A stretch of DNA of 46,834 bases from a virus: the IMG/VR virus record IMGVR_UViG_3300031576_000087, positions 1 to 46,834 of that record. The stretch is one strand, 5' to 3'. Below the pieces are notes generated by a model. The model did no database searches and was not told where the DNA came from. It saw only the letters and a list, made by a program, of their open reading frames with translations. Shown here piece by piece: positions 6,916 to 46,834 of the stretch; position 1 is the stretch's first letter, and every line of letters starts with the position of its first letter. Both the position numbers and the translations under genes were made by a program.

Positions 6916-7588
6916 GATCTGTACTCCAATTAATAGGTTCTTTTTTCATAGTGTATAAAATCTTATTAACCTCGGCAAAATGACCACACGTTAAAAATCC
7001 CTTATAGGCTGAGAATGGTGATGGGTGCGGTGCCTCAAGCACAAAATGACGGGCATCTATGTATTTTTTGAAGGCCTGGGCCTTATTGCCCCACAGGAGG
7101 AATATTAGCCGATCTTCCCGCTTATTTAAGCGAAAGAATACTCGCTTAATAAAATCTTGCCACTGACCGTTGTGGATTCCGGGATTATCAAGCTCTACGG
7201 TGAGTGCGGCGTTTAGTAACAGCACTCCCTGTTTAGCCCAGCCCGATAGATCTGTTTCGGTATTAACGATACCCAAATCGTGTTCAACGGCTTTAAAAAT
7301 GTTTTTCAAGGAGGGGGGAGTTTTTATATCTCTATCAACCGAAAAGGCTAACCCATTCGCTTCTGGCTTAGTAGTCATGTCGCTACCGTTAATCTCATAT
7401 CCATGATATGGGTCTTGACCAACAATAACCACTTTGACGCTTTGAAGTGGTGTAAGTTTAAAAGCCTTGAAGACATCCTCTCGTAATGGGAATACCACCT
7501 TATTGGGGTGCTTGTATAGGTCAACTAGCCATCCGCCAAACAGGCTAGTCAAGGTTTCGTGAATTAAAGGAGTCCATTCGTTAGTCAT
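6905..7588 (-). CDS. ung: Uracil-DNA glycosylase (family 1)
   Basis: A 227-aa family-1 UDG, full length. The water-activating loop GQDPYHG (residues 57-63, catalytic D59), the PPSLKNIF segment, and the minor-groove loop HPSPFS (188-193) are all intact. The LLLNAALT strand, which carries the uracil-binding Asn, is also present. It excises uracil from DNA for base excision repair. It overlaps the preceding gene by 8 bp. Carrying UNG implies that the phage DNA does not use uracil in place of thymine. There is no dUTPase in this window. Confidence 0.95.
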   Translation of the reverse strand: MTNEWTPLIHETLTSLFGGWLVDLYKHPNKVVFPLREDVFKAFKLTPLQSVKVVIVGQDPYHGYEINGSDMTTKPEANGLAFSVDRDIKTPPSLKNIFKAVEHDLGIVNTETDLSGWAKQGVLLLNAALTVELDNPGIHNGQWQDFIKRVFFRLNKREDRLIFLLWGNKAQAFKKYIDARHFVLEAPHPSPFSAYKGFLTCGHFAEVNKILYTMKKEPINWSTDLDK

Positions 7589-7925
7589 TTTTCTTGGCCC
7601 TCTTGGCTAACATTTCAGCTTCTTTTATTGCTTTGTTTTGTCGTGCAAATGCTGAATCAACTTCTAAATCGAAGCGTCGAACGCAGGCGGGTCGGAATAT
7701 GAAATTTTTTACAAGAAAATTATCTACCACAGAAAAGATGTAGTCACCGGATTGAACTTCAACCCCAACGCCAATACGATCTTTTAAGAGAAGAGTTAGT
7801 CGTTCTTTTTCTTTATAAAGTGATTTGAGTACATCAATAGTTGACTCGATTTCTGCCAGCCTCCCAATAATTTTTTCATTAGTGGGCTGATTCACCAATT
7901 GTACTGCCGGTGCTTGATTTTCCAT
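7581..7925 (-). CDS. Hypothetical protein, 114 aa
   Basis: Start supported by AAGGGA 6 nt upstream. The first half is a probable coiled coil (EIESTIDVLKSLYKEKERLTLLLKD), followed by a short beta-rich segment and a basic, alanine-rich C-terminal helix. It overlaps the UNG start and abuts the 79-aa gene, so it is part of one operon. Family not recognised. Confidence 0.65.
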   Translation of the reverse strand: MENQAPAVQLVNQPTNEKIIGRLAEIESTIDVLKSLYKEKERLTLLLKDRIGVGVEVQSGDYIFSVVDNFLVKNFIFRPACVRRFDLEVDSAFARQNKAIKEAEMLAKRAKKND

Positions 7926-14953: not shown

Positions 14954-14970
14954 ATCTTAAACCCAAAAAT

Positions 14971-15190
14971 GTTAGGGCCGGGCGCTACTCCGACATCTGA
15001 TTATTTGTGTACCCTACTACCATACACCCGATGCATTAGTAGTGGATTAACCCTAATGCAAGATAAGCCTAATCAGGCGATTTATCCTGTTATCCGCGTG
15101 TCTCCAATGGGTCCAGATTCGAACTGGATGCTTTTTACCTAAAGGTATTGTCGCAGTGAACCAACACCACAGCTTCCCACGCCGCCTAAC
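14971..15190 (-). ncRNA. Putative structured RNA with tRNA-like T-arm
   Basis: A 220-nt stretch without a protein-coding gene. On the - strand its ends pair: GTTAGG (15185-15190) with CCTAAC (14971-14976), then GGCG (15180-15183) with CGCC (14981-14984). Inside lie a perfect T-arm, TCCAG-TTCGAAT-CTGGA (15112-15128), an 8-bp hairpin TGCATTAG/CTAATGCA (15032-15060), and smaller stems such as GTGTA/TACAC. The T-arm is flanked by CCCA that can pair with TGGG near the 5' end, as the acceptor stem does in tRNA. No proper anticodon arm or 7-bp acceptor is found. It may be a stable RNA, or the 5' leader of the primase-helicase operon. The strand is favoured by the T-loop and an upstream promoter. Confidence 0.45.
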
Positions 15191-15193
15191 AAA

Positions 15194-16213
15194 CTAAGTA
15201 ATATCATTTTCTCTAATTTTAGTAATCAAAAGTTTTTGTAAATCTGGATCTTCCTTTACGGCAAGACCAAAATTCTCAACACCTTGCCATTTTTTGCCGC
15301 CGTAATTAACCCAGGTTCCAGCCATTTCAACGATGCCCATTCCAACCGCTATAGTAGCAATTTCTTGATGTGTATTGATTAATCCATCTGTATAAGAGAA
15401 ATCCACCTCAACGGCCCTGTTTTGTGGACTCATTGAACTCTCTTCCATTTTAACGCGAATTTTGTGGCCAATTTGTATGAATTTTCCAGCACCATCTTTT
15501 TTATCACTATCAAAAGTGCGAGAGTCCTTACTGAAGATCTTTTCTATAATTACCCAATATTCAACAAAGTGCTTTAGGCCTTTACCGCCTGGTACATTGT
15601 ACGGTCTGTACTTAGCTGAATTGGTATCAAAATTATCTCTGATGTGTTGACATAAAAGTAATGCGATCTTGAATTGTCTTATGATTGGTAAAATCATTTT
15701 CATGGCACCGGGGAGGTATGCTCCGGCATCACCCATGACAAAATCAGTGCTATATTCTTTCCCTGCTTCTTTTGGATATCTAATGCCAGCAAGGGAGTCA
15801 ATAATAATCATTTTAATTTTTGCACCTTTTTGTAACATTACCTTAACGTCGGTGGTTATGTAGTCAAAAATATCTGTAGGCTCATTTGTTTGATAACTAA
15901 TAAAACGCTCAGGATCAATACCAAATGCTTTTTGCCAGTGTTCCATATTATCTCGGAATTCCGTATCAAAATGTAAAACAATGGCTTCTGGGTCAGTTTG
16001 GTGTAGATGTCCTGCGTATGCGAACGATAGAAGAGACTTGCCAGATTTTGGAGGTCCATAAAGCATGGCAGTATAGCCAGCCTTCATTCCGAAATCTTTA
16101 CCAAACAGATAATTCAATGCAGGACTGTTGGTTTGCGCGAACCACTGATCGGCTTTGCCCAGTTCCAACTTCTTTGCATCCTTGTGTAATTGTGAAAGAT
16201 AATTATCTGCCAT
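15194..16213 (-). CDS. RecA/UvsX-like recombinase
   Basis: 339 aa. RecA-type core: Walker A YGPPKSGKS (52-60), catalytic Glu in FDTEF, Walker B MIIIDSLAG (about 135-143), and a loop-2-like NVPGGKGLKHF. It lacks the long C-terminal domain of bacterial RecA and resembles the T4 UvsX type in size. It promotes strand exchange in recombination-dependent replication. It overlaps the putative mediator gene by 11 bp, in an SSB-mediator-recombinase gene order. Confidence 0.88.
   Translation of the reverse strand: MADNYLSQLHKDAKKLELGKADQWFAQTNSPALNYLFGKDFGMKAGYTAMLYGPPKSGKSLLSFAYAGHLHQTDPEAIVLHFDTEFRDNMEHWQKAFGIDPERFISYQTNEPTDIFDYITTDVKVMLQKGAKIKMIIIDSLAGIRYPKEAGKEYSTDFVMGDAGAYLPGAMKMILPIIRQFKIALLLCQHIRDNFDTNSAKYRPYNVPGGKGLKHFVEYWVIIEKIFSKDSRTFDSDKKDGAGKFIQIGHKIRVKMEESSMSPQNRAVEVDFSYTDGLINTHQEIATIAVGMGIVEMAGTWVNYGGKKWQGVENFGLAVKEDPDLQKLLITKIRENDIT
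15200..15229 (-). promoter_or_regulatory. Possible promoter for the structured RNA/primase operon
   Basis: -35 TTGATT (15224-15229), 18-bp spacer, -10 GATATT (15200-15205) on the - strand, within the last codons of the recombinase gene. Transcription would start near 15190-15193, just at the 5' end of the pairing element. The -10 is weak (4 of 6). Confidence 0.35.
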
Positions 16214-45252: not shown

Positions 45253-45375
45253 AACAACTCCTTAAAAAGCCCGTATCGTGGGCCAGCCGTGTTTACTTGC
45301 AGTGCCTTATAAACAGACGTGCTTCTTTCCGTCACCGCCACGGACTCAGCGGCCATCACTGCAGCACTTGTATTA
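45253..45375 (-). promoter_or_regulatory. Structured 5' leader of the reverse-strand gene
   Basis: A leader of about 120 nt from the promoter to the ATG. It contains a 7-bp long-range pair TGCAGTG/CACTGCA, a CCGT/ACGG or CCGC/GCGG hairpin, and ends in the terminator-like hairpin. It looks like an attenuator or riboswitch. No known riboswitch class matches that I can see. This, with the promoter and the HNH upstream stretch, accounts for the 257-bp gap; no other gene is seen in 45253-45509. Confidence 0.4.
45264..45283 (-). terminator. Attenuator-like hairpin with U-tract before start codon
   Basis: On the - strand GCCC-ACGATAC-GGGC (45269-45283) is followed by TTTTT (45264-45268), and then at once by AAGGAG (45258-45263) and the ATG. 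A short stem, so termination may be partial or controlled by upstream leader folding. Confidence 0.45.
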
Positions 45376-45381
45376 ACTATG

Positions 45382-45410
45382 ATTCTATCAGTGGCCTATT
45401 GGCTTGTCAA
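45382..45410 (-). promoter_or_regulatory. Strong sigma-70-type promoter of the reverse-strand gene
   Basis: Consensus -35 TTGACA (45405-45410), 17-bp spacer, -10 TAGAAT (45382-45387) on the - strand. The closest match to consensus in the window. It fires against the late transcript. Confidence 0.8.
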
Positions 45411-45509
45411 TGTAAGGTTTACACATTAAAAGTCTCAAAATCACACAACAATCACATAAAATTCCTTAATTAAATCAAGCGTTTAGGCCAAAAACTTAAT
45501 AATGAGGTT

Positions 45510-46157: not shown

Positions 46158-46834
46158 AAATATTACCGTAGCTGCCATTCTCTCAGCTGAAACTCCAGAT
46201 ACAACGGGGGAAATTCTTGACATTCGCAATGCAGATATTTCTACATTGCAAACAGGCAAAGCTCCATTGAATACAGAACATACAAACCCAGATGATATTG
46301 CTAAAGAAGGCGATAAGGATTTCAAAGGTTTTAATACTATAGTTGGTCGCGTAGTAACAGCAAAAAAGATTTTTAGTGAAGATGACTGCGACAATCAATA
46401 TGAAACAAAAGCATGGAACGATCTACAGGTTCCACTAATATTCGGCTATTTGGAATTTTGGGATTCGCCGGATGCTCACGATAACGCTAAGGCTGCCGCT
46501 TCATTGGTGCGCATGGCTCATCAGGGCAATTTTGAACACATGATAGGGTTCTCAGTAGAGGGACAAATTTTAAAACGAGAAGGAAATCGGCTTTCGGAAA
46601 CTGTGATAAAAAGAATTGCAGCGACCGGTAAGCCAGCCAATAAGGCTGCAAGAATTGAAGGGGTTGTGCATGACTCGGCATCAAGCGGAGACAACGTTTC
46701 TAAAACCGCACAGGATGACACAGATATCCTGCGCAAAACCATCAATACAAAGCAATGGCAGGTAGTTCAAGATTTTGGATTATCCAATGCCTTGTTTAGT
46801 TTAAGAAAGGCCTTAGAGGCCGGTACCCCATCGG
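46141..46834 (+). CDS. Prohead protease-like protein (partial, runs off the window)
   Basis: Open reading frame from ATG at 46141 to the window end (231 codons and 1 base), no stop reached. It has a conserved-looking start AAILSAETPDTTGEILD, H47 in NTEHTN and S138 in IGFSVEG, the His and Ser positions of phage prohead (XkdF/U35-type) proteases, which mature the capsid. The gene order portal, MuF, protease supports this. There is no Shine-Dalgarno site, only an A-rich upstream stretch (AAAAAAGAAAAAAG), perhaps altered by the HNH insertion. Confidence 0.65.
   Translation, partial: MKKLSKNITVAAILSAETPDTTGEILDIRNADISTLQTGKAPLNTEHTNPDDIAKEGDKDFKGFNTIVGRVVTAKKIFSEDDCDNQYETKAWNDLQVPLIFGYLEFWDSPDAHDNAKAAASLVRMAHQGNFEHMIGFSVEGQILKREGNRLSETVIKRIAATGKPANKAARIEGVVHDSASSGDNVSKTAQDDTDILRKTINTKQWQVVQDFGLSNALFSLRKALEAGTPS

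Follow-up and report, generated by a model that had tools for sequence, protein, structure and literature searches.

The locus considered here raises the question of what a large spacer does inside a block of closely spaced replication genes. The window, by which we mean the whole stretch of DNA that was analysed (46,834 nucleotides), is a 46.8-kb virus record encoding a DnaB-like helicase, a Toprim primase, a UvsX/RecA-like recombinase, a DnaE-type polymerase and GroEL, and comparison of its polymerase and recombinase gives Myxococcus phage Mx1 as its nearest cultured relative. The first-pass annotation, made from the letters of this DNA, described a structured element in what it called the only large intergenic gap of the replication block. 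The gap is indeed alone: it occupies 14954-15193 on the minus strand (240 nt), flanked by the UvsX/RecA-like gene and the primase gene, and all other gaps between 4.9 and 32.2 kb measure 51 nt or less. The end of the record holds two more long non-coding stretches, at 45253-45509 and 46158-46834.

The element in the recombinase-primase gap

The features of the window copy, with the basis for each, are as follows.

15200..15229, minus strand: promoter-like TTGATT-18-GATATT with 8/12 matches; family mean score peaks at the P1 start, this copy below the threshold of a stricter scan
14970..15191, minus strand: whole RNA element from P1 to P1, 222 nt; ends set by the P1 pairing
15185..15191, minus strand: P1 5' strand TGTTAGG; 8/8 P1 pairs change on both sides among members
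15183..15184, minus strand: J1/2; CG in 28/29 members
15178..15182, minus strand: P2 5' strand GCGTG; P2 becomes ATGC/GCAT, by covariation, in the divergent copy of G008
15171..15177, minus strand: 5' side of the core internal loop, GGAAGCT; hardly varies (in part an effect of the search pattern), present too in pattern-independent copies
15167..15170, minus strand: P3 5' strand GTGG; 4/4 P3 pairs change on both sides
15112..15128, minus strand: tRNA-like T-arm in the variable P3 arm; sequence, this copy only
15107..15110, minus strand: P3 3' strand CCAT; covariation
15101..15106, minus strand: 3' side of the core internal loop, TGGAGA; hardly varies (in part an effect of the search pattern), present too in pattern-independent copies
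15096..15100, minus strand: P2 3' strand CACGC; alignment and covariation
14995..15095, minus strand: variable middle domain with hairpins; not conserved among members
14977..14994, minus strand: P5 hairpin GTCGG-AGTAGCGC-CCGGC; both sides change in 5/5 pairs, and the loop is most often AGTMGCGM
14970..14976, minus strand: P1 3' strand CCTAACA; pairing and covariation
14965..14969, minus strand: T-run after P1, possible termination point; family T-run count

The minus strand of the element folds at -66.4 kcal/mol (z -1.14), which is not unusual by folding energy, and 25% of the 220-nt windows of the record score as low. Folding energy alone is therefore unremarkable and the proof of the element is comparative. 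A chance structure, or a decayed tRNA left in the spacer, would agree with a z of only -1.14 and with the cloverleaf-like pieces around the T-arm, but we give this explanation practically no weight, because it is already refuted by covariation across 30 distinct homologues and the tRNA model is negative. The pairing of the ends noted at the outset (GTTAGG/CCTAAC) is genuine and corresponds to P1, and the listed piece TGCATTAG/CTAATGCA is present in the window sequence. The second proposed end pairing, GGCG/CGCC, does not form a helix: the GGCG bases are part of J1/2 and P2, and those of CGCC extend over the loop and stem of P5. The T-arm TCCAG-TTCGAAT-CTGGA, which had been given prominence, does exist; it is the window's only tRNA-consensus T-arm with a G-C closing pair and a fully paired stem, and it is compatible with a constrained fold of the window copy (-63.5 vs -68.0 kcal/mol). 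It does not define the family: all other rows of alignment A6 lack it, as does the homologous copy in contig G017, so that the emphasis on it was wrong for the family. The opinion that the element is not a tRNA, tmRNA or known ribozyme agrees with ARAGORN, Rfam 15 and the tRNA covariance model, all of which were negative (RF00005 gave 0 matches on the window at E up to 10, and neither ARAGORN nor Rfam found a tmRNA in it). A D-loop/T-loop pattern scan that used the T-arm as key returned no homologue, most of its matches being tRNAs; those of them that seemed to have two T-arms were rejected because their anticodon loops fit the pattern. A phage tRNA (L066) was likewise rejected, its nhmmer match reaching only E 0.15. 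On another viral locus (L109:13563-13958) ARAGORN called a tmRNA gene with an unusual tag peptide.

The sequence of the window element was matched in none of the recombinase-primase gaps of relatives sharing the locus. Among those whose recombinases are 54-70% identical to that of the window, the gap is absent or nearly so in L026 and L181, is filled by terminator-like hairpins in L024, and carries two opposite-strand genes in L013 (4132-5991). A more distant relative, L033, has an HNH-type endonuclease-like gene in the gap (7078-7813), and from the contents of L033 and L013 the gap is an insertion-prone spot. Within the 54-70% group, other structured spacers occupy it in L016 (5770-6000, z -3.14, possible pseudoknot) and L025 (7012-7147); both match neither the RNA family described below nor Rfam and were rejected as members.

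A covarying RNA family in viral genomes

A covariance model (R1), trained on the window copy alone at a stage when it was the sole known member, was run on 32 contigs and records. It recovered a single full-length match, G017:56753-56951 (E 3.7e-8), in which P1 covaries from GTTAGG/CCTAAC to GATAGG/CCTATC and which has GNTAGGCGGCGTGGGAAGCTGTGGTG, TACCTTTNGGTAA, TGGAGACACGC and GTAGCG.C.GG.CCTANC in common with the window. The DNA pattern GTGGGAAGCTN{36,66}TGGAGACAC, written from the core common to these two copies, was searched in IMG/VR and gave 35 stretches, 34 of which are true loci with a P5 hairpin and a pairing P1, the sole false match being L212. Counting the window copy, there are 30 distinct sequences. 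The invariance of GTGGGAAGCT and TGGAGACAC is partly imposed by this pattern; the window copy, G017 and the copies found by model were not selected by it. A later model, R2, found copies that the pattern had missed in G005 (E 5.9e-11; a 67% relative by recombinase), G019 (two, in tandem) and G021 (three, two of them in tandem), as well as a second G034 copy adjoining the first and a weak match in G008. On the window copy, itself a training sequence of R2, the model matched 14969-15192 at E 1.9e-19. As a control, 100 other viral loci (0.96 Mb) contained no R2 match. Of 31 further contigs that are related to the phage of the window, five carry the RNA, and the copies examined there lie in other gene neighbourhoods than that of the window. 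A relaxed core pattern produced 20 new matches that were rejected, since they had no model match and resembled coding sequence. Searches of cultured phages and plasmids returned chance matches only, at limited sensitivity; for cultured phages the negative depends on a short BLAST query, which would miss diverged cores.

All members present the same order of parts: P1, CG, P2 (GCGUG/CACGC), the internal loop GGGAAGCU/UGGAGA, a variable P3 arm, a variable middle, P5 and the closing strand of P1. P1 has 7-10 bp in most members and varies freely in sequence, and P5 is a hairpin of about 5 bp with the loop AGUMGCGM. In the alignment of 29 sequences, 96.6% of the cells pair, compared with 70.9% after shuffling; 18/22 pairs change on both sides where shuffles lead one to expect 12.8; and the covariation score is 0.643, against 0.163 for shuffled alignments and at most 0.105 when the partners are slid. 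The members have a median identity of 0.47 when all columns are counted and of 0.31 once the core is excluded. In the nine distinct rows that hold model-found copies, 99% of the cells pair, in an alignment that was fitted to the model and includes one training sequence. The divergent G008 copy has ATGC/GCAT as P2, and the G005 copy has lost one base from each side of the core loop, a co-deletion. The first-pass annotation had proposed covariation in homologues as its check, and it was found, with pairs of P1, P3 and P5 all changing on both sides. The recovery of G017 at full length by R1 and the common set of P1, P2, P3, P5 and core loops identify a new family, and the results confirm that the element is real, that its architecture is RNA-like and strand-specific, and that it belongs to one conserved structured family. 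The suggestion of a new phage RNA is thus strongly supported by a covarying family unlisted in Rfam.

A second subtype was seen at L320:1676-1869, L321:1245-1484, L275:8043-8208 and L278:5611-5766, with an altered core loop and a conserved middle domain, GAGAAGACAATAC...GCCGAAGAC...GGTAATC...TTGAAC. In both G019 and G021 a standard copy follows it 16-18 nt downstream.

Genomic context, transcription signals and possible function

Members of the family stand alone or in tandem, at loci unrelated to one another, and their presence is patchy among related phages. Flanking DNA is mostly unrelated among members, the exceptions being the L199/L203/L215/L224 group, the L208/L220 pair and repetitive matches to L228. 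In several contigs (L199, L203 and L228) the RNA is flanked by a repetitive stretch that codes for Ser/Arg/Gly. Many copies are placed in operons, a few nucleotides past a stop codon, while the L202 copy lies between convergent genes and those of L216 and L220 run antisense to the genes on either side. The member contigs, which are fragments, have no protein family in common; the most widespread, the large terminase, is in 16. Two member-contig large terminases, compared for hints of the host, fall below about 33% identity to cultured phages.

A promoter that would start transcription exactly at P1 had been proposed. The sequence TTGATT-18-GATATT (8/12) does end 8 nt before P1; it fails the scan threshold and the signal holds as a family trend only. 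The mean sigma-70-like score of 37 members is at its highest among 50 offsets when P1 is taken as the start (6.78, most other offsets giving 4.7-6.2), and promoters near consensus are clear in just two members, L197 and L205. A T-run of at least four follows P1 in 14/38 members, compared with 7.6% in the background. The promoter signal at the start of P1 and the T-runs after it therefore make a separately transcribed, trans-acting non-coding RNA the most likely interpretation. Recurrence in dozens of unrelated, uncultivated bacterial viruses, together with absence from Rfam, likewise indicates that this is probably a stand-alone viral RNA. Our main reading, to which we assign a probability of roughly 0.55, is that the window gap codes for one representative of a family of structured non-coding RNAs that is spread among unrelated tailed phages and acts in trans.

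Several points weigh on the other side: the promoter signal is modest, the search pattern imposed the invariance of part of the core, the fragmentary contigs could lack a partner gene, and most copies are co-directional in operons, which also fits a cis role. A cis-acting operon element, whether a processive antitermination RNA of the HK022 putRNA kind, a leader or an mRNA stabiliser working on its own transcript, would account for this placement, in which the copy directly follows a stop codon and a start codon with its ribosome site comes soon afterwards, and HK022 putRNA is a precedent for a cis-acting phage RNA. We nevertheless consider it unlikely in view of the convergent and antisense copies just described, the tandem pairs, the T-runs directly after P1 and the want of a downstream gene in common. 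A leader or riboswitch calls for a consistent sense gene downstream, and L202, L216 and L220 have no sense gene nearby; unrelated contexts and tandem, convergent and antisense copies therefore argue against a leader or translation switch. The initial idea of a leader controlling the primase is accordingly unsupported as a general function, although the window copy may have a local side effect on the primase in this phage.

An origin structure, also put forward at first, receives no support, given that the copies, single or tandem, sit at unrelated sites and that a promoter-like signal and T-runs mark their ends. More broadly, the structure could work as single-stranded DNA, as a mobile element or as a recombination or origin site read by its structure, and the patchy presence at different loci of related phages, the inverted-repeat ends and the tandem copies all agree with this. 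The sequence of P1, however, varies freely as long as it pairs, unlike ends read by a transposase, no enzyme is linked to the element, and its ends bear the transcription signals, so that we rate such a DNA role as the least probable of the functional alternatives. Small ribozymes have conserved bases in loops around covarying helices. The conserved bases of the present family are confined in the same manner, and the internal loop and the P5 loop could thus form the putative active site of a self-cleaving or otherwise catalytic RNA; no Rfam ribozyme matches, and we hold this to be somewhat less likely than a cis-acting element and slightly ahead of a DNA role.

Under the trans-acting reading, the RNA would either be transcribed separately or be processed from the transcript of an operon, with a start near P1 and an end near the T-run, and would act in trans, alone or on a component of the host. 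The invariant core, formed by the GGGAAGCU/UGGAGA loop and the AGUMGCGM loop of P5, would hold that component or make up an RNA active site, leaving the P3 arm and the middle domain free to diverge. As no phage protein accompanies the RNA in common, it more probably relies on a partner from the host, or on none at all, than on one encoded by the phage, and strict conservation across unrelated phages without an adjoining phage protein suggests that the target is a conserved host component or that the RNA is active alone. The variable arms gave no sign of being guides, their longest matches to the phage's own contig equalling chance. Our more specific proposal, which we offer tentatively and at somewhat less than even odds, is a new class of trans-acting RNA that is exchanged among unrelated tailed phages of uncultivated hosts, sometimes as tandem paralogues, and that blocks or captures a conserved host machine through its invariant internal and hairpin loops.

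Comparison with known RNAs

The family is undescribed in Rfam 15 or in the papers searched, yet it comprises at least 30 distinct sequences from very different tailed phages far from cultured ones, and the alignment and structure give annotators a model for finding the RNA. Rfam 15 yielded no relevant match for the window, G017, 11 further member loci and one type II/type I pair. No description that matches the family was found in the literature searched, a collection without subscription papers. A T-arm is common to tRNA, tmRNA and the window copy, but the core architecture is different, and ARAGORN and the tRNA model were negative. The bacterial Y RNA YrlA, with its tRNA-like module, presumably resembles the window copy in its paired ends and T-arm; it differs in that the window has no Rfam match at E up to 10 and that the T-arm is not conserved in the new family. 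TROVE (Ro60/Rsr), the partner gene of a Y RNA, had no match in the window fragment and six relatives and a sub-threshold match in Mx1 (eight records, fragments only); with no match above the cut-off, the Y RNA reading gained no support.

HK022 putRNA is a phage cis-acting RNA that suppresses pausing and termination, and it shares with the new family a short, structured form and a place in transcribed operon regions (PMC9378689). It differs in acting in cis, whereas the new family also sits where a downstream sense gene is absent. GOLLD and ROOL are structured RNAs of phages and prophages that have no known protein partner and whose function is unknown (PMC12286853). They are much larger (GOLLD exceeds 800 nt in many members) and often lie near tRNA islands, and neither their models nor any other Rfam 15 covariance model gave a relevant match to the members tested, nor was there a sequence match. 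What the new family has in common with GOLLD and ROOL is its nature as a structured phage RNA without a known protein partner.
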